Below are positions 3,748 through 49,317 of a stretch of DNA of 50,070 bases, piece after piece. Within the stretch, counting starts at the first letter, position 1; each line of letters starts with the position of its first letter. Position numbers and translations under genes: made by a program. The notes under the pieces were generated by a model. That model had not been told where the DNA came from. It saw only the letters and a list, made by a program, of their open reading frames with translations, and did not search any database. Origin of the DNA: a virus; the IMG/VR virus record IMGVR_UViG_3300038659_000297, positions 1 to 50,070 of that record; one strand, given 5' to 3'.

Positions 3748-3772
3748 TTACTAAGAGTCTTCTTTGTTTCCC

Positions 3773-3808
3773 GTAAAGGCATCAATATGAAAATGTTGGT
3801 GTCTTTAC
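3773..3808 (+). other. Stem-loop in the leader of the large terminase gene
   Basis: Arms at 3773-3785 and 3796-3808 can form a 13-bp RNA stem using two G-U wobble pairs, around a 10-base loop, followed by ATTTTAATT. It lies between the gene ending at 3747 and the terminase start at 3827. It may be a partial terminator or an RNA-processing or translational control element. The two wobbles mean the hairpin is much better as + strand RNA than as DNA. Confidence 0.55.
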
Positions 3809-3826
3809 ATTTTAATTAAAACGAAT

Positions 3827-30400: not shown

Positions 30401-32110
30401 CCTGTAATGCCATGGTATTACGGAGCATATCAACGTAATTGGAATACTGGTGATAAAAAAAATATGTTTGGTAAAGTATGTACAGTTTCTCCTGGTTATG
30501 CTACTACTATAATTAAAACAAAAGAAGATTTATTTACTGATAGTTTTATTGGTTCTAATGTTCATAAAGTACATTCTCAATTAAGAAGAGGAGGAAGCGA
30601 ATATAAAGTAAGTGATAGTTACCCGCTTATTAATTTGTACAGAAATAATAGACAGTCAGTTTACGGTGGCCGAACAGAACAAGCTTACAGTCGTAACACT
30701 TATATTCCGTTAAGTAAAACAATTCCAGTTTCTAAAGGAACTGGAGTGCAATCATTTTTATGTGGTGCTGACACTTACATGACTTTAAACATTCGAACTA
30801 AAAATGATGGCAGTGATAGCAATAAAATTGAAGACGTAACTTTTGATAACAGAAACACTGGTGGTGATACCGGAGATATTAGTGTATGGAAACGTAATGG
30901 AGCTTGGAATTATGTAAATGTACTTGAAACTCAATTAGAGCCTAAAATGATGTATGGTTACAATTTTTATAGAAAAGAAGGTAATCATGAGTTTGAAATT
31001 CCAAGACCAGAAATAATAAACGGAGCTTATTTAAACATCAACAACCTTAAACAATTTATTCCTAAACCATTTCAATTTAAAGATGATCCGGACATGGGAA
31101 ATGTTGTTGCTGTTTCTAATGTAAAACTAGCTGGTGAAAGTTATGATTCCTGGTCATTGTTTAAGCCTAACAATTTTTACGCAGAACTTGAAAAAAACAA
31201 AGGGGATGTTTCAAATATTATCAGACATAAAGAAGAGATATATGCCATACAAGAAGATCAAATCTCTCAGTTATATATTGGCACCGATAGAATCATAAAC
31301 GATGATCAAGGCAACCCTATCAATCTTAAACAAGGTTCCGGAACAGTAGTTGAAGGACATAAGGTTTTAAATAACTACGGAACTGCAATACGTCGTTCAG
31401 TAGTCAATAGTGAATTTGGTTTTACTTTCTTTGACGAAAAGCATGTTGAGTTTGTAAAAATGGGCAAACCATTACTTGCTCAAAAGCTTTTACATCTTGA
31501 TTTATGGGATAAAGTCAAAACTGATCCTATTATAGATGCAGAAGGATATTACGATCATCAGTACAAAGAAACTTGTATTCGAATTAGAACTAAAAGCGGA
31601 ATGGCCATGGTTATTTCTTATAATGAAATGCTAGGTGTTTTTAATGGAGAATATGAATACAATAATGATCACTACATTTCCTTTGACAAAAAAACGTATG
31701 CTCCAGTTAAAGGACAAAGTAATCTATTGCATCAATTAAACGAAGGACCTGTTTTAAATTTATTTGATGATAAAAAATTACTTAAAACTAGAGTACTTGT
31801 CAATTCTGAAATTGACAAGGTTCTTCAGTATAAACAAACAGGACTTATAACTTCAATGAAATATCCAATCAAAGAAGTATTATACAAAACAAGTCTTGGC
31901 CAAACAAGAATAGTAAAAGGAGATCATCCTTGGTATAAAATAAGAGAAGGGAATCATTCTATTCCTGCAAAGAACGAATTTCTTAAAACCTCAGAGCTTG
32001 CTGATCTTAGAGGAAATTGGATATCTATAGAAATAACAGCTGAAAGCATTAATAACGCAAAAGTTGATATCTTAGCAGTTATTAACAGTTTACGCCAAAG
32101 CCATCAATAA
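27497..32110 (+). CDS. Large tail hub / muzzle (nozzle-type) protein candidate
   Basis: At 1537 residues, this protein has the size and location of the tail muzzle (stabilisation protein) of crAss-like podoviruses, which forms the distal tail tube. The N-terminal pattern FEGGNSKDLSQNIEKKNTF, then NGRIYSKDGVFSFTAISGSK, resembles tail proteins that open with a gene-product list fold. The central YLYRIISEQGQISEFSPF is like the beta-propeller wording of P22-type tail nozzle proteins. The C-terminal third includes IIRHKEEIYAIQEDQISQLY and YNEMLGVFNGEYEY, compatible with propeller blades. It is followed by the small glycine-zipper protein and the cargo genes. The assignment is by order, length and motifs, not by alignment. 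Confidence 0.75.
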   Translation: MINFSTVNTFEGGNSKDLSQNIEKKNTFEKGLNGRIYSKDGVFSFTAISGSKLVYENSQIIKYLGHHSFRDEAIVFAKCLIPTGESQGTEETVTEIQIQTDDFILKGLSETDTVITNSQSFISANTEIIETTYTIVVPLADEDDFELPYSETESTQEEIDFGEYYNERFNVANYKICNINENAIPLNNQEYYDTIISFKLNSEGNLTSETLWTGLQNWPLNGKITAEGVEENEFFKRVYYSDAINNRRVMNRKDVALFTRKAKEFDQILDNVLLQPRLKIIEDGGQLNSMRVLYLYRIISEQGQISEFSPFSEFADILVENEAIGYRGGDVSEITTKVSKIEIDLINPEPSSQIECIALEFESQGPPTSIKNLGIKQARAITEFSHFGNETEFIDDITIADILEFKNTWKYCNDFTSKKNKLIAAGLRNNPLPTEIQNLEYLMPLHSWNEGSNTFNSLMNPEPWNYRWIDPTNTEKLIYIKQKKYENISSFGPCLITFENRENGNFIEKEFPNLDLENYTDILADIRDWLLDQYFNNSEFLSLFPNLKIKNNGGQLLMTPINEEIVTDFADYVLKSNNNQFIENFKSDIEFNDLNLNSSKFIHGAQSAGFNQGNGVRVTYKEFKEPLLKKATKIYDGSDKLLNYNTPSGEKYCMKGEIYRLAFQAYDLASSRYFSIPLGDVMVPELYDTITYINNLGNPVIESKEYVNQSIDNNQLYGHGIKMQIEVRLSCEMQKLISMYQILYVERTEENRTILCQGIAAPLTRVQYNNSDQFKMDDRIQNKWNLPYYGGPVYDDRGIAQYDQNGEDFDYEGVDSDKRIITSRRLMYFDSPDLYFNKISDNFVKSSKLQVLARLNTDHTPGCIMEYGETIDGIPYKVEQYPKFSRKIKENQLIGNLNLEGLPRRARENSRDGTFESYFINVSVFSNYTKKTVRELSIEESRTLSRGEVISGNAFNLAHDVSNNALVMPVMPWYYGAYQRNWNTGDKKNMFGKVCTVSPGYATTIIKTKEDLFTDSFIGSNVHKVHSQLRRGGSEYKVSDSYPLINLYRNNRQSVYGGRTEQAYSRNTYIPLSKTIPVSKGTGVQSFLCGADTYMTLNIRTKNDGSDSNKIEDVTFDNRNTGGDTGDISVWKRNGAWNYVNVLETQLEPKMMYGYNFYRKEGNHEFEIPRPEIINGAYLNINNLKQFIPKPFQFKDDPDMGNVVAVSNVKLAGESYDSWSLFKPNNFYAELEKNKGDVSNIIRHKEEIYAIQEDQISQLYIGTDRIINDDQGNPINLKQGSGTVVEGHKVLNNYGTAIRRSVVNSEFGFTFFDEKHVEFVKMGKPLLAQKLLHLDLWDKVKTDPIIDAEGYYDHQYKETCIRIRTKSGMAMVISYNEMLGVFNGEYEYNNDHYISFDKKTYAPVKGQSNLLHQLNEGPVLNLFDDKKLLKTRVLVNSEIDKVLQYKQTGLITSMKYPIKEVLYKTSLGQTRIVKGDHPWYKIREGNHSIPAKNEFLKTSELADLRGNWISIEITAESINNAKVDILAVINSLRQSHQ

Positions 32111-32778: not shown

Positions 32779-35313
32779 ATGGCTAAACCAAAGACAGAAT
32801 TACCAAAAAATATTGTAGACAGATTGGTTAGCAATTTGCAAATAGGTATTGCAGAAATCGAATCTGCAAAAGACGGTTATGCTGCACGTAATACTGATAA
32901 TAGTAATCCTGATTTACAAGCATTAGGCAAATACCAGTTTGTTCCTAAATATTGGTGGAAAGATATTCAGAGTTTTGCTAAAAAAAATGGATATGATAAC
33001 ATTAATGATCACGAAGATTTTTTAAGATCTCCTTCTTTACAAGATTCGTTTTTTAGACACTATGTCAAAAAAGATATTCTTCCTCAAGCTCAAAAAGTTT
33101 ATGAAAGCGGGCAAAACCCCGACAATCTTACTTTAGAAGAAATGACTGCTTTTTTTCATTTTCAAAGTCCAGAAGTAGCTAAAAAAGCTATTACTATGGG
33201 AGAAGAAGGATATCGAAAATCAACTAAAAAAGGTAAAGACGGTGCCACTGTAAATAACATTGGCATGAAAAAATATAGAGATAAATATCGTGAAGCTTTA
33301 AAGACTAAAGAAATACAACAGCTTACAAAAGCTGAGGTTACTGATCCTAAAACAAAAGAACAAATTGGCAAAGATTATTTTACTCAAAAAGGTAAAATAA
33401 TTTACAATTCTAGTGATCTTTCTAAAGAAGAAAAAAACAAAAGAATACAAGAATTAAATGCTGAATACAAAGCTAAAGGTCAAATAGGAATTGTCAATGA
33501 TTACATTGAAAATAGAAACGAAAAGCTTAGAGAAGAGCATACTCCAGTTGATCCAGCAGAAAAAGAAAAGCTTAGAAAAATGCTTGAGTTTTCCAAAGAG
33601 GCAAAACTCAATGCTGGTGTTGACAAAGACGGTAATCCTATAATTGCTAAAAGCGTAATTATACCTACCAATAGTTCAGAGTCAAGACAGCATTTTATTG
33701 ACTGGGCTGAAGCTAATGATGTAAAATACAATGAACAATCTAACCTTGAATTTGAAGTTCCTGGTTTTGATAAAATTCTTAAAAAGCAATTTAAAAAAGT
33801 TACAGGTAAAACATTAGACGTAAAAACTAAAGCTACTAAAGCTTCAGGTATGCAAAATGATATTGCAAATATTGCAGCATCTTTTGGCGGAAACAAATTA
33901 ATGCCTGCTACTTTTGATATTGACAATGTTGACCAAATAGTTGACAGCGCTGGTTCTTTAACTCAAATTCAAAAACTAGATCCGCAATATATTCCAGATC
34001 CAGTAAAAATTCCTGAGAGTTCTAAAACTGAAACTTCAGGCTCTGAGAGCAAGACTAAAACTGAAGTTGAAGTTGATGAAAAGAATCCAATTGTAGATGA
34101 TGGTGTAAACGGTGCTGCAAACCAAACGATTGACGCTGAACTTGGTTTTTTAAGTCTTGGTACTGGCAAAACTGTTCCAGTAGAAAGCAAAAGAGAGCTT
34201 CCTATTGATGCTATTACAGGTATGGCTTTAGGTCTCATTGGTGATGAACAAGCAGATAATGCAAATATCCCTTTAAGGACTGAAGAAGTTAGCCAAGCTT
34301 TTAAAAAGTTTAGTTCCGATTTAGCAAAAAGGTCTAAAGAAGGTTTGCCTGCTGAGGTTGAAGCTGCAATGAATAATAAACTAGCAGAAGCTTATCAAGG
34401 TGGCCTTAGAAGTATTATAAACGCTTCTGGAGGAAACCGAGCTACAGTCCTTGGTAATCAAGGTCAACTTGAAGTTGCTAAAAACAGAGGTCTTGTTGAT
34501 ATTGAGCTTGCTGATTTTGAAGCAAAAGAAAAAGCTTTTCAACAATACGGTGAAGCTATTAAATACAAAAATGATTTTGATTCCAGAAGAGACATTGCTA
34601 ATCATAGTATCAAATACCAAGAAGGCAAAAGAGATCAGAGACTTGGACAAGAACTTGCTGAAGCAGGTTTTTCTCAATTAGTAGAAGGTATTAAATACCA
34701 AAGAGAAAACGGTCCCGGAAGTGCTAATTCTCTTTATGAAGCTCATCTTTACCAAAAGATGTTTGGGTTTAATCCTAATGCTCCAGACGACGGAACAGGA
34801 AAGCCTGGTACCCGAAGTGCTTTTGAAATGAAACGTAAAGAAGTAGAAGAAAAACAATCAACTGCAAAAACTTACCAGGCTAAACTCAATGCTATGAATC
34901 CTAACCAAAGAAAAGCAGCCAATGAGTTTTTTGAAACTAATACGGACAGAAGAAATCAATACGAATTTTTAGATTATCTTGAAAAAAATCCAAACGTCAA
35001 TCCCGATAAAATCAATATGGAAAATATGGATTTAGCTGTTAATAAAAAAGATTACGGTCTTTTGTCTATAGACAGAAAAGAGATTGACAGACAAGAAACT
35101 ATATCAAAACCTGTTATTGATAAAAAAGAAGTTTCTAATTTCTTCGCTAATCCTCAGACTCCAGTTAACGCATCTAATCAACCTGAAGGTTTATTAGCTA
35201 CAGCTCAAAAACCAAATAGCCCAGAGGAAGTCAATGATAATGAAGAAAATGAAACTAACTTTGCTAAAGATTACGAATCAGGAGTTTTGGCTAATTTGCC
35301 TAAGCTCGCCTAA
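32779..35313 (+). CDS. Internal virion protein with transglycosylase-like domain
   Basis: The N-terminal ~180 residues of this 844-residue protein look like a phage lytic transglycosylase. Candidate catalytic Glu26/Glu28 lie in IAEIESAKDGYAARN, and the downstream ALGKYQFVPKYW (48-59) matches the A-x-G-x-Y-Q-F-x-P pattern. The rest is charged and helical, with long coiled stretches and an acidic C-terminus. Virion-associated transglycosylases open the peptidoglycan so that DNA and internal proteins can enter. The gene is in the cargo position before another cargo protein and the giant polymerase. Which Glu is catalytic cannot be decided by eye. Confidence 0.78.
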   Translation: MAKPKTELPKNIVDRLVSNLQIGIAEIESAKDGYAARNTDNSNPDLQALGKYQFVPKYWWKDIQSFAKKNGYDNINDHEDFLRSPSLQDSFFRHYVKKDILPQAQKVYESGQNPDNLTLEEMTAFFHFQSPEVAKKAITMGEEGYRKSTKKGKDGATVNNIGMKKYRDKYREALKTKEIQQLTKAEVTDPKTKEQIGKDYFTQKGKIIYNSSDLSKEEKNKRIQELNAEYKAKGQIGIVNDYIENRNEKLREEHTPVDPAEKEKLRKMLEFSKEAKLNAGVDKDGNPIIAKSVIIPTNSSESRQHFIDWAEANDVKYNEQSNLEFEVPGFDKILKKQFKKVTGKTLDVKTKATKASGMQNDIANIAASFGGNKLMPATFDIDNVDQIVDSAGSLTQIQKLDPQYIPDPVKIPESSKTETSGSESKTKTEVEVDEKNPIVDDGVNGAANQTIDAELGFLSLGTGKTVPVESKRELPIDAITGMALGLIGDEQADNANIPLRTEEVSQAFKKFSSDLAKRSKEGLPAEVEAAMNNKLAEAYQGGLRSIINASGGNRATVLGNQGQLEVAKNRGLVDIELADFEAKEKAFQQYGEAIKYKNDFDSRRDIANHSIKYQEGKRDQRLGQELAEAGFSQLVEGIKYQRENGPGSANSLYEAHLYQKMFGFNPNAPDDGTGKPGTRSAFEMKRKEVEEKQSTAKTYQAKLNAMNPNQRKAANEFFETNTDRRNQYEFLDYLEKNPNVNPDKINMENMDLAVNKKDYGLLSIDRKEIDRQETISKPVIDKKEVSNFFANPQTPVNASNQPEGLLATAQKPNSPEEVNDNEENETNFAKDYESGVLANLPKLA

Positions 35314-35325
35314 CTATCTATAAAT

Positions 35326-37389
35326 ATGAATGGTTTAAAAGGACTCACTGAAGGTACTCAAGATCGCGAATCAAAAATTCGCGAACTTGGTGTTTTAGAA
35401 AGAATGTCTCAAAGCGTAGAGCAAGAGAAAGCAGCAGAAATACAAGCTCAGCAACAAGAACAAATGTTCTATGAGAAAATGTATCAAACTGCTGAAAGCA
35501 TGCTTGGTAAAGACAGAGAGCGCATTAACAAAAAAATTATACTTGCTCAAAGGCAAGTAAGAGAACATTTAGATATGACTGGTGGTTCTCGAAAAAACTT
35601 TTTAGCTGAAGGTGGCATGTCTGTTTTAGGCAATCTTAAAAATCAGATATTAGAATCTGATGAAGCTTTTAAATATAAAGAAAACGCTAAAAACCTTGCT
35701 AAAATCTTAGAAATAAAAGAAAAAGGTCTTGGCCATTTGCTTGCTCCTAGAGATTTAGAGTCTGCTGAAAACTATGAAAAAAATCCAGAGGGTGGATCGA
35801 TTACTTATTCTGGAATGATGACTGAAATAAACATTCCTCCTTCAGCTAATTCTGATTATGGTACCCAAATTCCTATAAATAATATACTAAGTTATGATTC
35901 AAACTTAGTTAAGATTATGGGCAATTATAAAATACAACATCCAGATGCTCCAGATTTAGACCCGCAAAATAATCCTAAAGATTACATGAAACTTGTAGCT
36001 TTTGCTAAAAAAATGGGTTATGGTGGCACAGGCAGTAACACTACAGCTATGAGAGAAGAAGCTGCAGCATCTAGAGCTAGAGCAGCTTATGAAAATAAAA
36101 GATCTACTAAACAAAAAGATCTTAAAAAGAGTTTTATTTCTCAATACAATGTGCTTAATTCTAAATTTAAAGAAGGCACAACTGTTGAAGATATTAATAA
36201 ACCAATAGAAGAAGGTGGTTATGGCGGTAGCTATTGGGAATCCCAACGTAAAAATGATCCTTCTGTCAATAAAATACTTGGAGATAAATCAACTTTAATA
36301 TCAAGAAAAAGAGGCCTTGATGAAAAAGGTTTAGACGGTAACGATTTTCTTCCTGATTTTATTGATGAATCGGGCGCTTACTTGTTTAATGATATGGTTG
36401 GCCTTAAAGATTCCTATCGAGTATTCCAAGGCAACGAAAAGAAAATTGTTGATAAAATTTTAGGTCAAGAAAACCTTGGTGGTTTTAAAATTGAAGGAAA
36501 TAAAGTTATTGGCTACACTCCTGGTGAGCAAGATTTCAGAATGGATGGTGTAAAACTTGGAACTAAAAATGCTGTAAACCCTGATGATTTTAAAGGCAAT
36601 TACGAAGTTATGGGAGTAGTTACTGGTATGAAATCTATGATCTCTAATGGTGATGGTGTTGAAGAAGAAGCTTTGTTAATCAATGCTTATGATGATAATG
36701 GTGAATTAGACAAAGATGCTACTGCTAAAATAGAAGAAGGTTATACTTCTGAAATGAAGCCTACAACTCTTATTGCTTTAAGGAACGAAAACGACGATGT
36801 TTTTTATAAAGAAATAGATATGGGCAGACCAGACGTTGCTACAATGATGAGCAATGCTATTGGGGAAGATGATGATATAACAGATAAAGTTCAGCAAGAA
36901 AACCATGCAGCTGCTAAAATGCGTCAAATAAAAAAAATGGGTAAAGATGAACGCATTATGGTTGATCGTAAAATAAATGAATTAGATCAGGAAGTTTTTA
37001 ATGATGAAATGTTTAAAACAGAAGGAGAAAATTTTTACGGAGAAAACAGCGGTGGCCAGTTAAATAGAGTTCCTGAAATGAAAGCTTTCTATATGGCTTT
37101 TGATTATTTAGAGAATTCTAACAAACGTGATGAAAACAATCCAGACGGAGATAAAAGTATCTATGCTCCTAACGTTCAAAAATATATTGATCAAGAAAGA
37201 TTTACAAAATCTGTTATTGCTGCAGGAACTGAAGAAGATTTTAAAAGCTATGAAACCGGAAACAGTTCTGATAAACTTATAGAAAAATGGATTGAAGGAG
37301 CTAATAGTGATTTAGATCAAGATTCACTAGCTTACAAACGAAACGTAGAATTAGCCGCTAAATGGCAACAAATTCTAAACATAATATAA
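35326..37389 (+). CDS. Large helical internal (cargo) virion protein
   Basis: A 687-residue hydrophilic, mainly helical protein with no enzymatic motif recognised. The first 100 residues are Gln/Glu-rich coiled coil (AAEIQAQQQEQMFYEKMYQ). A structured middle contains GSITYSGMMTEINIPPSANS and DYGTQIPINNILSY; the last part is acidic. In position and composition it matches a crAss-like cargo protein packaged with the virion RNA polymerase. It is the last gene before a terminator and promoter pair. Confidence 0.7.
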   Translation: MNGLKGLTEGTQDRESKIRELGVLERMSQSVEQEKAAEIQAQQQEQMFYEKMYQTAESMLGKDRERINKKIILAQRQVREHLDMTGGSRKNFLAEGGMSVLGNLKNQILESDEAFKYKENAKNLAKILEIKEKGLGHLLAPRDLESAENYEKNPEGGSITYSGMMTEINIPPSANSDYGTQIPINNILSYDSNLVKIMGNYKIQHPDAPDLDPQNNPKDYMKLVAFAKKMGYGGTGSNTTAMREEAAASRARAAYENKRSTKQKDLKKSFISQYNVLNSKFKEGTTVEDINKPIEEGGYGGSYWESQRKNDPSVNKILGDKSTLISRKRGLDEKGLDGNDFLPDFIDESGAYLFNDMVGLKDSYRVFQGNEKKIVDKILGQENLGGFKIEGNKVIGYTPGEQDFRMDGVKLGTKNAVNPDDFKGNYEVMGVVTGMKSMISNGDGVEEEALLINAYDDNGELDKDATAKIEEGYTSEMKPTTLIALRNENDDVFYKEIDMGRPDVATMMSNAIGEDDDITDKVQQENHAAAKMRQIKKMGKDERIMVDRKINELDQEVFNDEMFKTEGENFYGENSGGQLNRVPEMKAFYMAFDYLENSNKRDENNPDGDKSIYAPNVQKYIDQERFTKSVIAAGTEEDFKSYETGNSSDKLIEKWIEGANSDLDQDSLAYKRNVELAAKWQQILNII

Positions 37390-37479: not shown

Positions 37480-40400
37480 ATGCCAGATATTTTCAAAATG
37501 TTTGAAGAAACTCCTTCAAATAAACAAACTCCAAATCCTGCTTCAGATCAAAAAACTCAACATGAGGATTTTTTAGAATATCCTAATGACAAAAAAGAAG
37601 CACAATCTCAAGGCTCACAATCTCAGCAAGAACCTAGGCGAGCTCAAAACAATTTTGAGAGCGATACTATTACTAATGACCCTAGAGAGCAAGAGCGTGC
37701 TCAAAACACTATGTATTCTAATAGTGAACTTGGAGAGATTTCAACTAAAAACACTAAAAATTTAGAAGCTGATCCTGAGAGTTGGACTCCAGAATATACA
37801 ATGAAGCCTTTCTTGGATGAAACAGGCACAAGTATTGTTCGTGGTATTGGTAACCACATTTTAAAAGGTACTGGAGATATGCTTCAAGTAGCTGGTTCTT
37901 ATGCAGGCTTTGATATTTCTAAAGGAAATATGATTTCTAGAGCATTACAAGAATCTGGTAATGCATTGGCTGATAAAAACAAATCTTATATTCCAGAAGA
38001 ATTACTTGCTGAAAACTTAGATTTTAGCTCGATGATTAATCCTAAATTTTGGAGTACACAAGTTGCGGAAATGATACCGCAAATTGCAGAATTTGTGTTA
38101 TTATCAAAAGGTGGTGCTGGAATTGCTAAAGCTGGAGCTAAGAAATTACTTAAAAACAAAGCAATTAAAACAGTAGCTAAAAATGCTGGTTTAGGTAAAG
38201 CAGCTGCATCAACAGTAGGCGCTGGTAAAAAAGCTACAAAAGTTTTTGGTACTGGCAAAGGTGTTATGGGTAAGCTTGCCACAGACCAAGGGCTTACTTC
38301 TGGAATGTCTGCGGCAACAGGAGCAGTTGGTGGTGGTATTACTAGCAACTTTATGTCTGGATTGCTTAATGCTGCTCAAGTAGTAAATGATCATAAAGAG
38401 CTTAAAGATACCAATGGTAATTTAATTTTTAGCAAAGAAGATCTTTCTCAAATGGCTTCTGGTACTATGAGAAACAATGCCGGATGGTTGCTTTACGATA
38501 TGGCATCATTTGGTATGACTTACGGAGGTGGCTGGAAAGCTCTTAAAGGAATGAATCCTGTAGCTAAAGGTGGTAAATTATTTAACGCAGCTCAGCGTAG
38601 CAAGATATCATCTAAAATGTTTAGATATGATATTGCACCTATTGTAAAAAATGTAGCTAAACTTTCAGGTAAAGCTGGCTTTGAAGGTTTTGAAGAAACC
38701 TTCCAAGAAACATACGAAGAGTGGTCCGCACAAAAAGCTATTTCTGATGTTACCGGAGAACCAATGAAGCACAAAAGCTTTATGGACTTCTACAATTCAG
38801 AAGAAAACAAAGCAACTAAAGTTATTTCTTTTGCTACAGGTATACTAGGTGGTGCCGCGTTTAACCTTTCCACTTTAGTCAATAAGAAAGCTGATGACAA
38901 TTTAAAGCTATACAACCGTATAGAGAATTTTAAAAAGATTGTTGATAAAAATGGTACTGAAGAAGAGTTAAACTGGCAAGAGTATCATATTCGTCAACAA
39001 ATAGCAGACATTGTTATTGATGATAATATTGGTCTTTATGAAGACTTTACAAATAAACTTGTAGAAAACGGAAACATCACTGAAGATGAAAAAGTTGTTT
39101 ACGATGAAATGGTTGAAAATTTTCAAGAGGTTAAAGCCAAAGGGAAACGATTAAATGTAAAAGGTCTTTCTGCTTTGATGTATAACAACGCAAAAGAATC
39201 TTATTTTGACAAAAAGATTGATGAGTATCAGACAATTTCAGAAGAACGTATTGCTACTTACAAAGAGTTAGACGATGGCAATAGTGCTGACGTTAAAAAG
39301 AAAATAAAAGAAGAAGAGCAAATTTTTGAAAAGCGATTAAAAGCGCTTTCTATTTTAAAAGCTGAAGCCAGTCAAAATCAAAGAAATCTTATTCTAGGTA
39401 AAAAAGCCAACCCTTTAGAGGTTGACTTAGTACTTGATGAATTTGGAAATGAAATGGTCATTGGTGGTTTGTCTACTCAAGACTACAACAAATACACTAA
39501 CGATAATGTATCTAAATCACAAAAAGCTGCGGATTCTGCTAAAGGTGTTGTTGGTGGAATTAAAAGTGCTGGCAAAGCTGCTCAACAAGAAGCCGAGAAC
39601 CGTGGATTTAAAATGCCATCTATGTCTAACTTATCTAAGCAAGGCAAAGAAATGGTTAATAAGGTTATGGATCAGTTTAAATCAGCTAAAGAGCCAGACA
39701 ATCAAGAAACAGAAGAAAACACTGCAAAGTCAAAAGAAAAGGCATCAGATAGCACAGATGCAGATAATCAAGAACAAGAAAATGCTCAAACTGAATCTAC
39801 TAAAACTGAAACTGAAGCTCAGCAAGAAGCTCAGCAAGCTGCAGAAAAAGTTGAGATTGATCCTAATGAAGTTGTAAGCGATGAGATTTATAAAGCTTTT
39901 CAAGAAGAAGGTGAGCTTGATTTAAAAACTATTCAGGACATTGCTACTGCTATTAGAAAGAAAGGAAAGCTTTCTCCACGTCAGGATGAAATGAGAGATA
40001 AGAATAAAGAGACTGTAATGCGAGAAATCACAAAACAGATACTTAACACTTCTACTCAAGCAAATGAAGGCGACACTATTTCTTCTCAACAACCAGGTAC
40101 TAAAAAAACAGAATCCAAAAATCCAGAAAACAAAGAAGATTCTGAAGTAGATAAAGAAGTTGATGAAGAAGTTGATGAAGAAGTTGAAGATGAAGATTTG
40201 ACTGATGCTGAAAAAGCTTTTGTTAAGACAGTAGCCAAAGGAAAACAAATAGGTAAAACTATTGGTGACGTTGGTAAAAGAAAACTGGCCAGAGCAAAAG
40301 AGCTTTATCGTTTAAAGAAAAAAAATACTGAAAACGCTGAAGAAGCAGTTGGGTCGGATCGTAAAGCCGGAACAACTAAAGAAAAAACTATTCCATTAAA

Positions 40401-43400
40401 AAATAGATTACAGTCTATTTTTATGAATGATGTAGTTAATAAAATCCGTAACCGTAAAAATCCAGACGTTGAGAACCTATCTCAAAACGAAATGGATAAT
40501 TACCTCAACACTATGAGTGCTTACAATGAGTTTGGTCCTACGGAACTAGACAAAATGATTGTAGTCAATCATCAGCTTAAACGAATGTTCCCTAATGCCG
40601 AAACTCCTAAAGAAGCATTCATTGTCCGTAATATGTTTCAAACTCTTGGAAGAGATGCGCTGGGACATACTATGGCTGGAACAATTTTTATTGATAGCAA
40701 AGCATGGAATCAAGATAGAATATTTATGCACGAGATGTCTCACATTTATTTTCAGCTTGCTAAAAACGAGCCAGAGACAAAAGAAATGCTTCGAAATGCT
40801 ATCAAAGACAAACCGCTTTTAGATAGAGTTAAAAAGATGTACGATCATCTTACTTATTATTCTATTGACATACCTGGTGGAAAGCCAGAAAAATTTACTA
40901 AACAAAACATTTTTGCTGAATACAAACGTTATGGTGTTAAACCAGAAAATCTTGAAGCTCAGCTTGAATTTGAAATTAAAGAAGGAACTCTTAACACGGT
41001 TCCTTTAAGTCAGCAAGGACTTATACTAGAAGAATTATTTGTAGCTAGACTTGAAGGTCCATTATCTGATAACTTCGATAAAATATTTCAGCCTAAAAAT
41101 GAACCTAGACGTCAAAAAGATGTAAAAAAATGGTGGGGATTAATTCGCAAAAAAGGGGAAATTATAGAAGAAGATGATGGTGTCAATTTCATGTTGCGAA
41201 AATTAAGTGAAGACGGTATTCCAAGTGGTAATCTAAAAGATTACATACTTGATACGTTTAAAGCAGTTACTGTAGGTGTTGATGTAAGCGCTGAAGGCAT
41301 GGATGCTTTAGCTATGGATTTAACTCAAGCAGAAAAAGCAGAGCTTGAAAGCATTAGAGATCGTAAAGTTGCAGTAGCTGATTTTGAAATTAAAAATGCT
41401 GGTAATATCAGAGAACAAGATATTATCACTGATTTAGAAGAAGATCTTGAAGATGATGGTACTTCGTTCTATGATAAAGATTTTGAAAGTAAAGCTAAAG
41501 GCGCTACTCGAGTGATCAAACGTTTTGGCCAAGTTTACAACAAAGCTATGCGTAAACGATTCCTTGCTAAAAATAAAGACAAGAAAGCTGACTACAAAAA
41601 AGTACCATTGTTTGATAGAGATATGTTTGAATCTACATTGTATTCTCTAGCTGTAGAAAACAAAACCGCAAATGAGTTTATAAGACAAATAGAAAATTCT
41701 GAATTGAGAGAAGTTAAAGCTTTTGATTCTTATATGAAAAGCATTCATGGAGACAATAAATTGAATTTTTACAATTCAATGCATTTTGTTTTTTCAAACG
41801 CAAAACATATATCTGGTTTTAATAATACTATTGACAACAACGGTAAGTATAGCTTTAACAATTCAATGTCTCAACTTGAAGTTCACAAGTCTAATTTAGT
41901 TTTAAAAAGACTTAAAGATGAATTTGATAAGCACATATCACCAAATTCAAATTCACCTATTTACAATAAGTTTCAAGAATCTGTTTACAATATCTACAAT
42001 GGTTCTCAAGACAAACAAGATCTTTTTAATGTGATTGAAGCTCTTGTTCCGGCTTATGGACAGTTTAATCTTCAAAAGATATTAGATCAAGGTCATGTTA
42101 CTTATAAAGGCCAGACAATGCCAATAGAAACATTAGTCTATGGCTTTATTAAAAAAAGAATGATGTTTCAAAAAAATGTCACGCGTGGTGATTACAAAAA
42201 AGCTCAAGAAGCTTACGCTAAACAACTGGCTAGAATACCTGCTATAGAAAACAATCCTTTTTTTGCTTATGAAGGTGTCAATATCCCTATTAAAATATTA
42301 AAAACTAGCTCTGCTGCTAATTTCAATCAATTTAAAGCTCTTCCTTTGCCGGGGGATCCGGCCAAAGGAATTTACATCTTTAACGCTAGACCGCTTGTAG
42401 AATCGTTTATTAGCACAAACAGAAAATTCAGTCCATTGAGCTCTATAATGAACGCTCAAAAAAATATGACTCCAGTACGTATTACCAACAATCATTTGAC
42501 AAAAGAAGTTGACAATATGATTGAGTTTCTTACTCCAGATGCTGACGGTAATATTCCTACTGAAGAACAGTTTTTTGATCGCTTTTCTCATTTAGCTGAA
42601 AAGAATAAAAAAAGAGCTGGTAAAAATTACGTTCCAAATTTATTCCTTCAAAACATATATGACAATATGCAAAAAGGAATATTGCCTACTATCTCACAAT
42701 ACCACGGTATTGAAAACGTATCTGATAGAAAAGGTAATTTGTACGCTGGCTCTAGTGCGCTTGAGCAAGGCATTGAAGATTTTATGACTTTTGTTACAAG
42801 TTCTAGAAATCCTAATGGCAGTAAAAACAATTCCTATTTAGGTAGCGTGGGAACGTTCTCAGATTCTCCACGAAAGTTTTTTATGAACATGCCTAGAATT
42901 AAGTTTGAAGACGTTTTCTCTTATGATGATGATGGTAAACTTAAGTTTCATTCTAAAAGCAAAGGGAACGTTATGACAAGCGCTCAGCATTTATATGATG
43001 AGTTGTTTTGGGATGGCCCAATTGCAGGAAGTAGAACTAAGTTTCAAAACAAGCTTAAAGATGCAGTTCGTAATGAAATTCGTTTTATAAATAAAAACGG
43101 AGAAGAGCTTGCTAAAATAGACAAGCTAAAACCTTATTTCAAAAAAGACAATCGATTAACTCCAGAAGGAATCGAAATGGTTTCTGAATATGTTATCAAC
43201 AATATCGTGAATGGTCAAAATGTTACTGAAGTATTTTTACCTGGTATAAAAGGGGGCGATATTGTCAAAAGAATGAAGATGAACTCTTCTCCTATATTTT
43301 CTGCTAAAAATCCAAACTTTAAAATTGAACCTTTATTTTTTGCTGATGAAATAGTCAACGGAAGTATAGCGGGAACCGATTCAGGAATGTATATACTTGA

Positions 43401-46400
43401 AGAAGATGCCGCTAAATTACAAAAGCTAGGTAAAGGGGTCTTTGATATGAATAATGGATTTAAACTGCTTAATGCAAGCATTGAAAAAAACAATCCAAAA
43501 TTCAAAGGCAAAGCAGCTTATTTAAAAGGTTACACTACTATTATAAAAGAAGGGCACCCAATGTACAAGTCAATGAAAATTAGAAAAGACAAGTACAATG
43601 CTTACCACAAGGAAAAGTTTGGTGTAGATCCTTCTTTAGATTTATCTGATGGATCATTTAATCATATGGTTATTGCAATTCCTCAATCTTCAGACAAAAC
43701 AAACTTTAGTCCTGAAAAGTTTATTGAGAAAGGAGAGCATACTGAAAAAGGAGAAAAAATGACTCCAAATTATTTAAGAGATAATCCGGAGCACGTTAAT
43801 CAAACTCAAGATGATCTCTATTATAAAGACGGAGAATTTGTTGGTATAGAAACTTATAATTTTGGACCACAGCAAGTAATGGACAAACAAGTAAGCAAGT
43901 CCAATACTCCTGTACAAATGATTAATTCTATAATTGTAAACGCAGGAATCAATGGCCAGCTTAAACTGGCCAATGAGATTCAACAACATATTTCTAACCA
44001 AAAACAAGCAAACCTCAACAGAGTTTTAGAAGGTATTGAAGATCATACTGCTCAAGGCTATAGAGAGCTTGTTATGCGTGAAATGAATAGAGAAGAAATG
44101 AATCAAGCACAAAGAATAATGCTTGAAGACAATGGCTCTTTAGGTACTCCTTATGTAAATGAAATTGTCACCAATCAGCTAGGTCAAACTATTCGAAGAA
44201 ACGGTAACAAGCTATTTACACCAGGAACACTTGCACATCAAAAACCAGACATTGGTATTGAAATGGCAGGTGGTAAAGAAAACCAAAGACTAAAAGGCTA
44301 TCAAACTAACGGAGATGGCTCTTTAGCTCCTGCAGAGATGTATTTACCTAAACACATGGAAGGTAGCATCAATCAAAGGGAAATGGTTACTATGGACAGT
44401 TCAGCAGGTAAAACTGCAATAGAAAACTACACTAGAGGTTTATCTAAAGCAGAAAAAGCTGAACAAACTCCTACGCAAGATATGAACGCTTTAAAGTTTG
44501 CAGCTATTGAGCTAGCAATGAAACGTCATTCTGAAGCAATCATTAAAGATTCTGTAGAGAACGAAACAACTCAAACTAAAGCTGCTGAAAAGTACATAGG
44601 CACAGAAACAGATAAGTTTGGTTATCCTATTGGATATCATGTCAAAGGTGACAAAGTAATTGCTTCTCGTGTTCCCGGACACGGTCCAGCTTCTACTGGT
44701 GTTTTTGAAGTAGTAGGGTTTGATAGTTCAGACGGTAACCAAGTAATGGTTTCATCCGAATTTAATGACATCATTGGTTCGGACAATGATGGTGATGCTT
44801 TGTTTATTCAAATGAAAGGCAAAAAGAATTATGACGAGTGGAACCAAGCTTTTGATAAGATTACTCAATACTGGTTATCTCCAAATATGAAAGAGCAAAT
44901 TACTGCTCAAATGGAATTTGAAACACAGTCTGATGCAATTGTTGAAGAAATTAATCAGCAGTTTCCTAGTACTAAAGAGTACATAATGCCATTCTCTCCA
45001 GAGCAACGCAGAATTGATTACAGCAACACTATGGTTTCTAAAAGAAACGTAGGGCCTGTTTTCAATACTCACAAAATGACAAACATGCTAGCTGCTTATG
45101 AAATAGGTTTTGACAGACCTATTACAATTAGAAAGACAAATTACAAAGCTTTTAAAGATTATGCTAAAGGCAATGAATCACGTAATCAGCAGTCAGCTAT
45201 TTTGGCTAACATTATTTTAGATAATGCTAAGCATGGTTATGCAGATGCTATGGGTATAGATGAGCACAACATTAATCAAGCTGTTTTAATGGTTAATATA
45301 GGTGTTCCCTTAATGGACGTAGCTAAGATTTTAAATTCTCCAGCTGCTAAAATGTGGAGTGATTTAAACAGAAACAACAACAGTATGTTTCATAGCGGAC
45401 GCAAACGATCTAAAATTGTTGAACAGATTTATAAAAACCTTAGAATTAATCCAGAGAAGAATAAACCTATGGTTATAAATCCAGATAAAGCTCATGAAAA
45501 AAATCAGCAACAAGCAATAATTGAAACATTCAATTATTTAGACAATATGAATTCTGAAGTTCAAACTTTAGGTAAAATTATGAGTGGCCACAATACCATT
45601 CACGTTAATCCTTTAGTATTGGAACAACAGCTTGAAAAATTTTCTGAAGTTGTAAATGCTAAAAAAGAAAATCAAATTTTAGCAATCAATGAAGATTTTA
45701 AAAACAACGCTGAGCTTAAAAACTATAGACTTGTAGCAGAAAAAACATTGGAGCACATGAAGCGTGTTAATCCAGTTTACAGAACTGCAACAAATAAAGT
45801 ACTTAAAGCTCTTAAGACTAAAATAGGAGATATTGGTACTAATGAAATAGAAAACATCTCTAGAGATTTTCAAAAATTTCAAACTTCCAGATTGCTAGCT
45901 CACAACAACGTTTCAAAAGAGTACGCTAAAGACTTAATGAATCCAAATAGTGATACATCATTGTTTAACAAACTCAATAAGTTTTTGAGACCAATTAGAA
46001 ACAACATAGATATTGATAAGAACAATATCTTAAACAGTGTTTCTGCTATCAGAAACAGTTTGTTGTTTACTAAAGCAATGAATGTAGTTGGTAAAGGAAA
46101 TGATGTTTACATATCTGCTAATTCTTCTTTTGTCAATGAAAGTTTTAATGAACAAGAAAGACAAAGAGCTCAGCAAGAGTTTGAAGACCTACCAACTGAA
46201 ATTCAAGATGATTTAATTCTTTATGATTTAATCAACCACGGTTGGAAAGGACCTCAATCTTTAGCTCCGTTTTTTGGAAAGGACACTAACATGTTGATAA
46301 ATATGGCTTCTAATGAAGCTTTAAGAAATAATGATGAGAGAATATCTCCAGCGGTTCTTGAAGAGTTAGAACAAACGATTGCCTTAAAGCAATCGTTAAA

Positions 46401-49317
46401 CGCTAGCAATTCTTTTTCTAAAATTTATTTACCAGAAAAATCTAGTGCTAATTCTAAACAAGATGTGTTTAAAGAAATGTTTAAGCAAAAGAAAGACGGA
46501 GATTTTGAATATAATACTTTGATCAATTCTCTTTCTTTAGAAGGCGGTAAATACATTAATGTCTGGGATAAAAAAGGAAATTCAGCATTATATGAAGTAG
46601 CGGACATGGCCGAATTTTTACCAGAAATATTAAGTGAAAGAACATCTAATGCTAGAAAGCTTAGACTTCATGAAATGGTAAAAGAAAATACAGCTATGAT
46701 ACCAAACACTTTGACTTATGACAAGTCAAAACGACGTTACACGCCAAACATAGATTTAGCTTTGATTACAGATAAAAATGTAGGAGATCCTAATAAGACT
46801 CGAGAGAATTATGATGAAAGAGAATATTCAGATGAGCTTACTGAAGCAACTATAAGCTTTGAAGAAGCCAGTGCAAAGATGCGTGAAGCTCTAATCAATA
46901 AACAAGCTGAGGTTCAAGGTATGGATGCTGTGGAAGAGTTTGATATTCCTATGTTCGAAAAGGAGGAAGTGTTAACGGAAAATGAATATAATAGGGCTAT
47001 GGAATATAACCCTCTTACTCACAGCTCTGTTAAGGAGAAAAACTATAAAGAATACCTTAAAGAAAAAAAAGAAGCTAATAAATTAGCTACTACTTTAATA
47101 CCTCAGCTTGAAAATGCAAGTCAGGAAGAGCTTCTGGATATGTACGCTAAGTATGGGGAAAATAATGTTTACGCATACTCTATTGTAATGACTCCAATTA
47201 TTAAAAAGCTTGCTGGTCATTTAGCCAGTGATCAGGCACAGCTTTGGGAAGATAATGGAGTTGAAGGTTTAGGTTTTGATGGCAAAGATGTTTCAAAAAT
47301 GCAAGCTTACATTATGAGTGGATCTACAATTCCATCTAATCATCCTGCATCTCAAGCTTTGGCTAAAAAGCTTGAGGCTGAATACAAAAATTTTACTTCA
47401 GAAAAGTCTAAGTACATGTCTAGAATGAATCAAATAACCGATGCTTTATATAAAGAAAAGCTTGGTTATGGTTCTAAGCGTAGTGTAATGGGTACTTTGA
47501 AAAGGATTAGAGATATGATATTTACTGGGCAGTCAGAAATATATCAAAAACTCTATGGAAATTTAGTTACTCGTCAAGAAGTAACTGATAAAACTGGCAA
47601 AGTAACTTATGATTTTAGATTAAGACCTAAAGAAGAAATTGAAAAAGAATTTAAAGCCGGAGTGATCAGTAAAGCTGAAAAAGATTTTTATGATAATTTC
47701 AAGGCTACAACTAAAGAGTTGATGCCTGCTAAAGTAGATCATAAGAAAAAGCACGACTACGTACCTCATACGTCAATGAGTAGATTAGAAGCTTTTTCTG
47801 CTAGAGGTTTACTTGGACTTATGGTCCAAAGTAGAAATGAAGATGAAGCTTTAGCTGATGTAAAACTAAGGTACAAAGCACCTGGGGAAGAATCAGCTAA
47901 GCTTATGAACTTCAGACAAATTGAAGATACCTTCAAAAGAGATTCTATCAGTGTTCATAAAAGAAACGATATCAAAAGAATTAAAGAGTATCGTCAATTA
48001 AAGAAAAAAGCAAAAGAACTGCTAAAAACTGGCAAAAATGAAGATGGAAGTAAAATAATTTACGGAACAGTAGGTACTGAAACTGCATTAGGTTTTGGAG
48101 CTATAAATAGATTTGCTAATAACAGATCTATAAAAGCCACAGAATTGCCTTCAATGGATTTAAATAAAGCTTTAGGAGATTATATCCATTCAACTCTTTT
48201 CGTCAACGGTAACAAAAATTTTAAAGGAATGGAGAAGCTTCAGGGCTATATTGATGGAGTAATTGCTTTTAATCGGGAAAATAATTTGGAAAATATGAAC
48301 GTGCATGTTCAAAAAGTATGGAAAGATTATTTTACTAAAGGTAAGAGACAAACTTCAGTTTTAGGTAAAACTGGAGATAAAGTGATCAATGGTTTGACCA
48401 GATTTAATTTGTTCTATTCTTTAGGGTATTCAGCTAATAAAAACACAGGTGGTTTATATGCCATTGGTAATATCCTAGTTGGTAAATACCACAACATTAA
48501 AGATAATGGTGGTAAAGCTTGGATAAATGGAGAGCTGAAATACTGGGGATTAGATAAAGGTTTAGAAGGTGGTATCGAAGGTATTCTAGCTAGAAAGCGT
48601 AGAATAAACGGTATTATGAAAAGTCTAAACTTTATGGAGATCAATGTTTACGACGAGGTAAACCTTGAAAAGAAAAGTGGTCTTGATGCTATATTTTCTG
48701 ATCTGGCTTTAGCGCCAATGAGATATTCAGAAAAATGGATTCAGCAAGTCCACATGATCGGTAAGCTTACTGATGAAGAATTAAATAGGTTTGATGAAGC
48801 AGGAAAGTACAAAGGAGAAGGTAACCCAATAAGCAATGAAAGGTTAGCTGAATTAGAAGATCAAGTAAAAGCTTCACATGGCCGAGGATATCAACCTACT
48901 GATCAAAGAGCTATGCAAATGTATTCTTGGGGTAATATGATGCTTCAGTTTAGCAAATTCTTACCTACAATGGTGCATGATAGATTCTCAAAAGAAGATA
49001 TTAATATTTATGGTAAAGAGCATATTGGTAGCTTGCGAGCTGTAGGAAAAATGGTGAGGTACGTTTATAATCGTCCTGAAGGGTTCGTAGAGTATAGAAA
49101 GAACCTCTCACCTGAGCAGAGAGCTCGTTTGGATAGTGGGTTAAAAGGAATGGCCATTAGTGCAGTTGCTGGAATGGCTGGCATGGCATTGCAGAGCGAC
49201 ACAGCCAATGATCTGTTCTGGGATTCAAATTACTATTTTAATTTTAACAAATTAGAAAACAAAGCAATTCCACCTGCTATTCAAACTACTACCAATTTAA
49301 TGAGTAGTGTTTTCTAA
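37480..49317 (+). CDS. Giant virion protein: metalloprotease motif plus virion RNA polymerase
   Basis: This 3945-residue protein spans nearly a quarter of the window. Residues ~190-300 are Gly/Ala-rich and hydrophobic. An HExxH zinc-protease motif (His1084, Glu1085, His1088 in FMHEMSHIY) is followed by ILEELFVARLEG near 1185, a plausible third-ligand helix. An RNA polymerase core then appears. The beta-like half has GTDSGMYILEEDAAKL (from 1965) and KAAYLKGY (Lys2016). The beta-prime-like half has ASRVPGH (Arg2397, Pro2399, His2401), VVGFDSSDGN and the catalytic GSDNDGDAL with Asp2435, Asp2437 and Asp2439. This matches the single-chain two-barrel polymerases of crAss-like phages such as phi14:2, related to eukaryotic RNAi polymerases. 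The C-terminal ~450 residues contain phage-cargo-like sequence (GNMMLQFSKFLPTMVHDRF). It is probably packaged and ejected to transcribe early genes. Confidence 0.88.
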   Translation: MPDIFKMFEETPSNKQTPNPASDQKTQHEDFLEYPNDKKEAQSQGSQSQQEPRRAQNNFESDTITNDPREQERAQNTMYSNSELGEISTKNTKNLEADPESWTPEYTMKPFLDETGTSIVRGIGNHILKGTGDMLQVAGSYAGFDISKGNMISRALQESGNALADKNKSYIPEELLAENLDFSSMINPKFWSTQVAEMIPQIAEFVLLSKGGAGIAKAGAKKLLKNKAIKTVAKNAGLGKAAASTVGAGKKATKVFGTGKGVMGKLATDQGLTSGMSAATGAVGGGITSNFMSGLLNAAQVVNDHKELKDTNGNLIFSKEDLSQMASGTMRNNAGWLLYDMASFGMTYGGGWKALKGMNPVAKGGKLFNAAQRSKISSKMFRYDIAPIVKNVAKLSGKAGFEGFEETFQETYEEWSAQKAISDVTGEPMKHKSFMDFYNSEENKATKVISFATGILGGAAFNLSTLVNKKADDNLKLYNRIENFKKIVDKNGTEEELNWQEYHIRQQIADIVIDDNIGLYEDFTNKLVENGNITEDEKVVYDEMVENFQEVKAKGKRLNVKGLSALMYNNAKESYFDKKIDEYQTISEERIATYKELDDGNSADVKKKIKEEEQIFEKRLKALSILKAEASQNQRNLILGKKANPLEVDLVLDEFGNEMVIGGLSTQDYNKYTNDNVSKSQKAADSAKGVVGGIKSAGKAAQQEAENRGFKMPSMSNLSKQGKEMVNKVMDQFKSAKEPDNQETEENTAKSKEKASDSTDADNQEQENAQTESTKTETEAQQEAQQAAEKVEIDPNEVVSDEIYKAFQEEGELDLKTIQDIATAIRKKGKLSPRQDEMRDKNKETVMREITKQILNTSTQANEGDTISSQQPGTKKTESKNPENKEDSEVDKEVDEEVDEEVEDEDLTDAEKAFVKTVAKGKQIGKTIGDVGKRKLARAKELYRLKKKNTENAEEAVGSDRKAGTTKEKTIPLKNRLQSIFMNDVVNKIRNRKNPDVENLSQNEMDNYLNTMSAYNEFGPTELDKMIVVNHQLKRMFPNAETPKEAFIVRNMFQTLGRDALGHTMAGTIFIDSKAWNQDRIFMHEMSHIYFQLAKNEPETKEMLRNAIKDKPLLDRVKKMYDHLTYYSIDIPGGKPEKFTKQNIFAEYKRYGVKPENLEAQLEFEIKEGTLNTVPLSQQGLILEELFVARLEGPLSDNFDKIFQPKNEPRRQKDVKKWWGLIRKKGEIIEEDDGVNFMLRKLSEDGIPSGNLKDYILDTFKAVTVGVDVSAEGMDALAMDLTQAEKAELESIRDRKVAVADFEIKNAGNIREQDIITDLEEDLEDDGTSFYDKDFESKAKGATRVIKRFGQVYNKAMRKRFLAKNKDKKADYKKVPLFDRDMFESTLYSLAVENKTANEFIRQIENSELREVKAFDSYMKSIHGDNKLNFYNSMHFVFSNAKHISGFNNTIDNNGKYSFNNSMSQLEVHKSNLVLKRLKDEFDKHISPNSNSPIYNKFQESVYNIYNGSQDKQDLFNVIEALVPAYGQFNLQKILDQGHVTYKGQTMPIETLVYGFIKKRMMFQKNVTRGDYKKAQEAYAKQLARIPAIENNPFFAYEGVNIPIKILKTSSAANFNQFKALPLPGDPAKGIYIFNARPLVESFISTNRKFSPLSSIMNAQKNMTPVRITNNHLTKEVDNMIEFLTPDADGNIPTEEQFFDRFSHLAEKNKKRAGKNYVPNLFLQNIYDNMQKGILPTISQYHGIENVSDRKGNLYAGSSALEQGIEDFMTFVTSSRNPNGSKNNSYLGSVGTFSDSPRKFFMNMPRIKFEDVFSYDDDGKLKFHSKSKGNVMTSAQHLYDELFWDGPIAGSRTKFQNKLKDAVRNEIRFINKNGEELAKIDKLKPYFKKDNRLTPEGIEMVSEYVINNIVNGQNVTEVFLPGIKGGDIVKRMKMNSSPIFSAKNPNFKIEPLFFADEIVNGSIAGTDSGMYILEEDAAKLQKLGKGVFDMNNGFKLLNASIEKNNPKFKGKAAYLKGYTTIIKEGHPMYKSMKIRKDKYNAYHKEKFGVDPSLDLSDGSFNHMVIAIPQSSDKTNFSPEKFIEKGEHTEKGEKMTPNYLRDNPEHVNQTQDDLYYKDGEFVGIETYNFGPQQVMDKQVSKSNTPVQMINSIIVNAGINGQLKLANEIQQHISNQKQANLNRVLEGIEDHTAQGYRELVMREMNREEMNQAQRIMLEDNGSLGTPYVNEIVTNQLGQTIRRNGNKLFTPGTLAHQKPDIGIEMAGGKENQRLKGYQTNGDGSLAPAEMYLPKHMEGSINQREMVTMDSSAGKTAIENYTRGLSKAEKAEQTPTQDMNALKFAAIELAMKRHSEAIIKDSVENETTQTKAAEKYIGTETDKFGYPIGYHVKGDKVIASRVPGHGPASTGVFEVVGFDSSDGNQVMVSSEFNDIIGSDNDGDALFIQMKGKKNYDEWNQAFDKITQYWLSPNMKEQITAQMEFETQSDAIVEEINQQFPSTKEYIMPFSPEQRRIDYSNTMVSKRNVGPVFNTHKMTNMLAAYEIGFDRPITIRKTNYKAFKDYAKGNESRNQQSAILANIILDNAKHGYADAMGIDEHNINQAVLMVNIGVPLMDVAKILNSPAAKMWSDLNRNNNSMFHSGRKRSKIVEQIYKNLRINPEKNKPMVINPDKAHEKNQQQAIIETFNYLDNMNSEVQTLGKIMSGHNTIHVNPLVLEQQLEKFSEVVNAKKENQILAINEDFKNNAELKNYRLVAEKTLEHMKRVNPVYRTATNKVLKALKTKIGDIGTNEIENISRDFQKFQTSRLLAHNNVSKEYAKDLMNPNSDTSLFNKLNKFLRPIRNNIDIDKNNILNSVSAIRNSLLFTKAMNVVGKGNDVYISANSSFVNESFNEQERQRAQQEFEDLPTEIQDDLILYDLINHGWKGPQSLAPFFGKDTNMLINMASNEALRNNDERISPAVLEELEQTIALKQSLNASNSFSKIYLPEKSSANSKQDVFKEMFKQKKDGDFEYNTLINSLSLEGGKYINVWDKKGNSALYEVADMAEFLPEILSERTSNARKLRLHEMVKENTAMIPNTLTYDKSKRRYTPNIDLALITDKNVGDPNKTRENYDEREYSDELTEATISFEEASAKMREALINKQAEVQGMDAVEEFDIPMFEKEEVLTENEYNRAMEYNPLTHSSVKEKNYKEYLKEKKEANKLATTLIPQLENASQEELLDMYAKYGENNVYAYSIVMTPIIKKLAGHLASDQAQLWEDNGVEGLGFDGKDVSKMQAYIMSGSTIPSNHPASQALAKKLEAEYKNFTSEKSKYMSRMNQITDALYKEKLGYGSKRSVMGTLKRIRDMIFTGQSEIYQKLYGNLVTRQEVTDKTGKVTYDFRLRPKEEIEKEFKAGVISKAEKDFYDNFKATTKELMPAKVDHKKKHDYVPHTSMSRLEAFSARGLLGLMVQSRNEDEALADVKLRYKAPGEESAKLMNFRQIEDTFKRDSISVHKRNDIKRIKEYRQLKKKAKELLKTGKNEDGSKIIYGTVGTETALGFGAINRFANNRSIKATELPSMDLNKALGDYIHSTLFVNGNKNFKGMEKLQGYIDGVIAFNRENNLENMNVHVQKVWKDYFTKGKRQTSVLGKTGDKVINGLTRFNLFYSLGYSANKNTGGLYAIGNILVGKYHNIKDNGGKAWINGELKYWGLDKGLEGGIEGILARKRRINGIMKSLNFMEINVYDEVNLEKKSGLDAIFSDLALAPMRYSEKWIQQVHMIGKLTDEELNRFDEAGKYKGEGNPISNERLAELEDQVKASHGRGYQPTDQRAMQMYSWGNMMLQFSKFLPTMVHDRFSKEDINIYGKEHIGSLRAVGKMVRYVYNRPEGFVEYRKNLSPEQRARLDSGLKGMAISAVAGMAGMALQSDTANDLFWDSNYYFNFNKLENKAIPPAIQTTTNLMSSVF

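Follow-up and report, generated by a model that had tools for sequence, protein, structure and literature searches.

A giant single-chain protein of a crAss-like phage joins a two-barrel RNA polymerase to gp47-like and gp49-like regions and a putative zincin site

Introduction

Of the phages in the human gut, crassviruses are the most abundant. Their virion RNA polymerase has companion proteins in the particle, whose roles form the context for the protein described here, in which polymerase and two companions appear to be present in one chain. In crAss001, gp47, gp49 and gp50 were found in virions by mass spectrometry and are RNA polymerase (RNAP)-associated (PMC10172136), and their location in the virion is supported also by PMC6235969. 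Crassvirus polymerase proteins of up to ~6000 aa have already been mentioned in a review (PMC10136315), and PMC10770324 notes, for both crAss-like and N4-like phages, virion polymerases fused to large uncharacterized proteins.

Genomic setting

The window, by which we mean the whole 50,070-nt stretch that was analyzed (IMG/VR record IMGVR_UViG_3300038659_000297, positions 1 to 50,070), carries the following genes besides the one of interest.

495-2141: GroEL-like chaperonin (PF00118, E 1e-50), adjoining the packaging genes
3827..5998, plus strand: terminase large subunit, TerL (phrog_6681, E 2.8e-50)
6021..8267, plus strand: portal protein (phrog_6547, E 4.2e-47)
9487..11160, plus strand: crassvirus major capsid protein (PF23898, E 2.2e-8)
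27497..32110, plus strand: crassvirus muzzle protein, 1537 aa (PF25731, E 3.4e-53)
32779..35313, plus strand: 844-aa gene that occupies the place of cargo gene C1 (assigned by position)
35326..37389, plus strand: 687-aa gene that occupies the place of cargo gene C2 (assigned by position)

Judged by its muzzle, capsid, portal and terminase genes, the window is from a crAss-like phage; PF23898 and PF25731 score above cut-off, and the portal and TerL match their PHROGs. Among the matches listed, TerL is 22-26% identical to crassvirus TerL and the portal 20-23% identical to crassvirus portals, and with identities of only 20-26% the phage therefore represents a deep crAss-like lineage. To our knowledge, no phage of this group has been cultured. 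The giant ORF follows the muzzle gene with the two cargo-position genes between them, as in known crassviruses, and hhalign found no homology between these two upstream genes and cargo proteins C1 and C2. Elsewhere, the window encodes a collagen-repeat tail fibre (18089-21268) and a smaller BppL_N and endosialidase-chaperone (Peptidase_S74) protein (16284-17174).

The giant ORF and its relatives

37480..49317, plus strand: giant protein whose single chain comprises a gp47-like part, a zincin-type site, a two-barrel RNA polymerase and a gp49-like part

This ORF encodes 3945 aa and runs from ATG to stop in a single uninterrupted frame. The original prediction had placed it exactly, and the two motifs named there, HEMSH and DNDGD, are both conserved in relatives. 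Each of the patterns behind HEMSH (residues 1084-1088), DNDGD (2435-2439) and RVPGH (2397) matches once in the 3945-aa protein. Of shuffled versions of the protein, 7.5% contain HExxH and 5.3% contain DxDGD, so that either motif alone is weak evidence. These odds of 5-8% per motif at such a length, together with the metagenomic source, are what might favor reading the motifs as chance occurrences, or the ORF as an assembly artefact that fuses separate genes.

The relatives speak against this. They were collected from IMG/VR, with core identities between 69% and 27% in one family and of 23-29% in an additional set, and wherever they are complete the ORF is single and intact, at 3756-4163 aa in the close relatives and 3508-4019 aa in the distant ones. 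All close relatives whose ORF spans both regions have both motifs in one chain and in the same order. Twelve distant relatives were aligned, eight of which have HExxH and four HExxGH at the same place; L081 and L087, distant relatives in which no HExxH was found, were excluded from the alignment. Because they are conserved across relatives, both motifs are real. A vanishingly small chance is all that we would grant to coincidence or misassembly, a reading already refuted by the many relatives that were assembled independently and show this architecture intact, and by the fold match to PDB entry 6vr4 described below.

For comparison with known cargo proteins, the family alignment was cut into seven pieces and each was run against them with hhalign. 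The nulls were 30 column-shuffled profiles and one reversed profile per comparison (best null E from 0.012 to 0.21), and all hhalign E-values in this work are those of single comparisons.

The polymerase core

43087..45639, plus strand: two-barrel RNA polymerase core, residues 1870-2720 (AF2, Foldseek, hhalign)
43318..43905, plus strand: predicted beta-like barrel region, residues ~1947-2142, with K1995 and K2016 invariant (strand pattern of the model)
44668..44796, plus strand: beta-prime-like active site, from RxP (2397) to GSDNDGD (2433-2439) (conservation)

The 851-aa core model was built with AlphaFold2 (AF2) from a 19-sequence alignment of residues 1870-2720 and has a pLDDT of 84.1 and a pTM of 0.81. 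Its top PDB match in Foldseek is 6vr4, the virion RNAP of phi14:2 (E 6.4e-13, probability 1.00), over 1101 alignment columns with a TM of 0.59 by query length, followed by QDE-1 and multisubunit polymerases. At the level of profiles, the core reached 97% against phi14:2 gp077 and crAss001 gp50 and 98.8% (E 8.6e-17, hhalign) against 13 crassvirus RNAPs, and ≤0.7% against the control cargo proteins gp47, gp49, gp076 and gp078; the core piece of the family alignment gave E 2e-13 against gp50 and gp077. These computations establish residues 1870-2720 as a two-barrel polymerase homologous to the crassvirus virion RNAPs. The phi14:2/QDE-1-type polymerase that had been predicted is thereby supported: the model, which spans residues 1900-2600, aligns lengthwise to 6vr4, and the absence of a two-barrel fold that would have spoken against the prediction was not observed.

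Conservation locates the functional positions within this fold. Polymerase residues invariant in 31 relatives include K1995, K2016, R2397, P2399 and G2433, and also D2435, D2437, G2438 and D2439. The triad stands in the context G(S/A)DxDGD with its aspartates invariant, so the DxDxD of crAss-like virion RNAPs is present, in a beta-prime-like double-psi barrel by the fold match to 6vr4. From the R of RxP to the first catalytic D the distance is 38 here and 39 in phi14:2 and crAss001. The beta-like signature proposed for residues 1965-2017 does hold the invariant K1995 and K2016, and residues ~1947-2142 would form the beta-like barrel, an assignment made through the fold match. As for the predicted R-x-P-x-H, its R-x-P is conserved but its H varies, relatives having RIPHNG, RVPADK and others. 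That the beta-like and beta-prime-like barrels lie in one polypeptide is supported by the single 851-aa model matching 6vr4.

Other searches contributed little. The Pfam RdRP family PF05183 matched weakly in two family members (best E 0.0015), and apart from this nothing useful came from Pfam, PHROGs and NCBIfam run on the chain or its pieces. A PDB sequence search with whole-chain, core and protease profiles returned chance matches only; tblastn queries with the core, the protease region and one distant relative matched nothing in 50,697 phage records; and when bacterial and archaeal genomes were scanned once with the core, no relative appeared.

The two ends of the chain

37747..38919, plus strand: gp47-like N-terminal domain, residues 90-480 (hhalign)
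47020..49314, plus strand: gp49-like C-terminal domain, residues 3181-3945 (hhalign, BLASTP)

The sequence flanking the two motif regions was described as unknown in the original prediction, a description that no longer holds for residues 90-480, which are gp47/gp078-like, or for 3180-3945, which are gp49/gp076-like. At the N terminus, residues 92-449 match the gp47 set (crAss001 and kin) with E 6.9e-5 (best of 30 shuffles, 0.18), and the N-terminal piece matches phi14:2 gp078 with E 2.1e-5 (best of 30 shuffles, 0.041). The C-terminal piece matches phi14:2 gp076 with E 4.8e-7 and the gp49 set with E 5.6e-5 (hhalign; best of 30 shuffles, 0.058 and 0.031, respectively), and plain BLASTP of the domain against gp076 gives E 7e-4. 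Its motifs are SExxIQ ... DQR..YSWG, of which the SExxIQ type is shared with gp49-like proteins. The gp49-like domain is single-copy and always inside the giant frame in 16 of the 17 relative records, the 17th ending before the domain. By tblastn, the domain (window 47920-49100) also resembles tail-associated lysins of Bacillus phages at ~25% identity (best E 6e-4), which may be chance.

Between the recognized parts, residues 2720-3180 align weakly and collinearly with gp50 towards its C terminus (E 0.006, non-significant), and residues 480-960 and 1300-1870 gave no significant hhalign match to known cargo proteins. The order of gp47-like part, polymerase and gp49-like part is that of gp078-gp077-gp076 in phi14:2, and Dulem virus 41 has it too. 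The 3945 aa found here compare with 5398 aa for the summed separate proteins of phi14:2 and 6102 for those of crAss001, and parts have therefore been lost or are unrecognised. Since its two ends match gp47 and gp49 proteins, the chain fuses three RNAP-associated cargo proteins, and it is this three-way fusion that appears different here.

The metal site

40594..41088, plus strand: putative gluzincin domain, residues 1039-1203 (six invariant residues; AF2 helices)
40729..40743, plus strand: HEMSH (1084-1088), predicted zinc-binding/catalytic motif (conservation)
41014..41034, plus strand: Q1179 to E1185, two residues that never vary in 30 relatives; E1185 is proposed to be the third ligand of the zinc

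A gluzincin site is defined by two histidines, the glutamate between them, and a later glutamate on a second helix. Across residues 990-1300, the only positions invariant in 30 relatives with a mean pairwise identity of 23% are H1084, E1085, H1088, Y1121, Q1179 and E1185, a set that makes up a gluzincin-like signature. A two-helix layout of the zincin site has been described likewise by Iyer et al. 2017 (PMC5512222). The AF2 model of residues 960-1560 has a pLDDT of 64 and a pTM of 0.34, with local pLDDT of 62-88 over residues ~1080-1199. It places HEMSH, at moderate confidence, on a helix at model positions 121-134 and E1185 on a helix at 221-243 that carries the EE motif, and E1185 may thus bind the metal as its third ligand.

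The metalloprotease motif of the original prediction stands as a zincin-type site by its invariant residues, but not as a confirmed zincin fold, the model having matched nothing: Foldseek with the protease-region model, in which pLDDT is low ahead of the motif, where a zincin would have its beta-sheet, gave no match below 0.001 in PDB or BFVD. Zincin families did not emerge from profile searches either, no Pfam or NCBIfam peptidase family matching in 18 family members. Compared with the HExxH regions of other crassviruses, the zinc-site region aligns HExxH on HExxH with E 0.0075-0.018, barely better than shuffles, and homology between them is marginal by these profiles. A likeness of the protease region to IgG Fc was rejected as a coincidence due to MHEALHNHY. 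L072, L078, L080 and L082 have HExxGH, one residue longer, and retain the downstream [DE]E-x-[FW]-A motif; this longer form presumably resembles the motif of M49 dipeptidyl peptidase III.

One reading of such a site gives its metal a purely structural or assembly role, without peptidase activity. The failure to match peptidase families favors it, as does the N4 counterpart, for whose HExxH domain no activity is reported in the accessible part of PMC12633501. Against it stand Glu1085, Tyr1121 and Gln1179, whose invariance in 30 relatives goes beyond the needs of metal binding. In zincins, the glutamate of HExxH is the catalytic base and not a ligand. As Glu1085, the general base and non-ligand, never varies, a purely structural metal site is the less likely, and we consider it quite improbable.

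Fused and unfused layouts in other crassviruses

The joining of protease and polymerase in one chain, presented as a peculiarity of this protein in the original prediction, is not one, since all nine Suoliviridae giant proteins examined have both. These proteins (9 records, GenBank) are 4328-5794 aa long and combine HEA[FWY]H with GSDFD[IV]D or GADFDVD. In-frame stops occur in five of the nine frames, which is consistent with the stop reassignment reported in crAss-like phages (PMC7886860). The annotations given to the Suoliviridae giants (L038-L047), namely DNA helicase, DprA-like, exonuclease V or nuclear pore protein, look like errors. No mention of a zincin in the polymerase proteins of crassviruses turned up in our literature search, whose coverage was incomplete.

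In Steigviridae, HExxH is found near the C terminus of gp47 (at 2157 of 2341 in crAss001), with the polymerase encoded by a gene of its own. The gp49-like gp076 of phi14:2 (L037 997-5262) has HEIMH at residue 245, and its gp47-like gp078 has no HExxH. The gp47-like protein of Dulem virus 41 (L049 5188-12612) has HELNH at 139 besides HEAFH at 2327. Which cargo protein carries the metal site thus seems to vary between crassviruses.

This distribution bears on the idea that the chain is a polyprotein, which the zincin would cut in the head or after entry into gp47-like, polymerase and gp49-like subunits. The zinc site does lie between the gp47-like and polymerase parts, the Steigviridae gene boundary comes soon after the HExxH region of gp47 (crAss001), and zincin processing of multidomain phage proteins has been proposed by Iyer et al. 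2017 (PMC5512222). However, Steigviridae gp47 retains its HExxH though the polymerase is already a separate gene, and the phi14:2 HExxH is located in gp076 instead. Separating the gp47-like part from the polymerase is therefore unlikely to be its sole job, an argument that presumes related HExxH regions, for which profile support is marginal (E 0.0075-0.018). Nor do virions point to cleavage: crAss001 bands of ~150, 270 and >300 kDa, which the gel text of PMC6235969 does not assign to proteins, fit uncut gp49, gp47 and gp50 by the masses in PMC10172136. Recombinant full-length N4 virion RNAP, HExxH domain included, was purified and modelled to residue 3500 (PMC12633501), and no cleavage site was identified in the giant chain. 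We therefore regard such cutting as unlikely. A fully self-processing polyprotein, in which the three subunits would be packed and ejected 1:1:1 and the gluzincin would either separate them or activate the polymerase after entry, strikes us as distinctly improbable.

The retention of HExxH in both layouts, fused and unfused to the polymerase, instead fits a target in trans, be it of the host or of the phage. The zincin might enter the cell as an effector against a host protein, which it would cleave in defence, transcription or the envelope, and be fused to the polymerase for co-delivery only. Host targeting by such domains has been proposed as an alternative in PMC5512222, but the window itself points to no host target, and in this strict form the reading is conceivable but somewhat doubtful.

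Proposed function

Computation establishes the homology of the N terminus to gp47 and of the C terminus to gp49 and the invariance of the zinc-type site. The reading that we prefer, and hold to be very probable, is that the giant protein is a single-chain transcription cargo of the crAss-like virion, acting through the packaging, ejection, early-transcription and zinc-site steps proposed here. Its parts would be gp47, gp50 and gp49 of crAss001, or gp078, gp077 and gp076 of phi14:2, joined in the phi14:2 order, so that the chain would read from a gp47-like N terminus through a gluzincin-type metal site and the two-barrel polymerase core to a gp49-like C terminus. By analogy with the studied relatives, the protein would be made late and packed in the head, would be ejected partly unfolded through the muzzle tail, and would refold in the host, where the polymerase would transcribe early phage genes without the host polymerase. 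Least certain is the part of the zinc site, which may be an active peptidase that attacks a target of the phage or the host during ejection or later, and could possibly also cut its own chain.

The giant-protein family demonstrates that all three cargo proteins can exist as one chain, a layout from which equal stoichiometry and a shared passage through the tail follow. The six-residue signature provides a precise, testable mark of a metallopeptidase-type site.

Comparison with known systems

Eukaryotic RNAi polymerases, QDE-1 among them, have the same two-barrel single-chain fold but are cellular, much shorter and without cargo domains. The injected, multidomain polyvalent proteins with a zincin-like MPTase domain (Iyer et al. 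2017) are similar in layout, and the giant chain may be one of them. In Thermus phage P23-45, gp96 is likewise a giant chain of the virion, and its polymerase is of the two-barrel kind with DFDGD (PMC10770324); it differs in being fused to the tail tape measure protein of a long-tailed phage, and the passages of that paper on gp96 mention no zincin.

The Suoliviridae giants (e.g. KNV26_gp059 of cr50_1, 4774 aa) have HExxH and triad in one chain and in the same order as here, but they are longer, their triad is DFD[IV]D, and the next gene is separate (weakly gp49-like where compared). In crAss001 (Steigviridae), the same three modules, all virion cargo, are the three genes gp47, gp50 and gp49, with gp50 and gp49 on the opposite strand. 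The phi14:2 RNAP (gp66, the 2180-aa gp077 of KC821624; PDB 6vr4) is a homologous single-chain two-barrel polymerase with RxP, as here, 38-39 residues ahead of the DxDxD triad. Its partners gp078 and gp076 match the ends of our chain, and phi14:2 also encodes a GroEL (gp117), as does this phage; phi14:2 differs in having three genes and the triad DFDID rather than DNDGD.

The virion RNAP of N4 (Schitoviridae) is an ejected chain of ~3500 aa with a polymerase and a zincin-type HExxH domain (PMC5512222; PMC12633501). Its polymerase is of the T7-type single-subunit kind, an unrelated fold, and its zincin comes after rather than before the polymerase; the T7-like single-subunit domain of such N4-type enzymes is absent from the protein described here, which has the two-barrel polymerase instead. 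Crassvirus cargo proteins, whether fused or separate, repeatedly carry HExxH sites, and the virion polymerase of N4, although of a different kind, has one as well.
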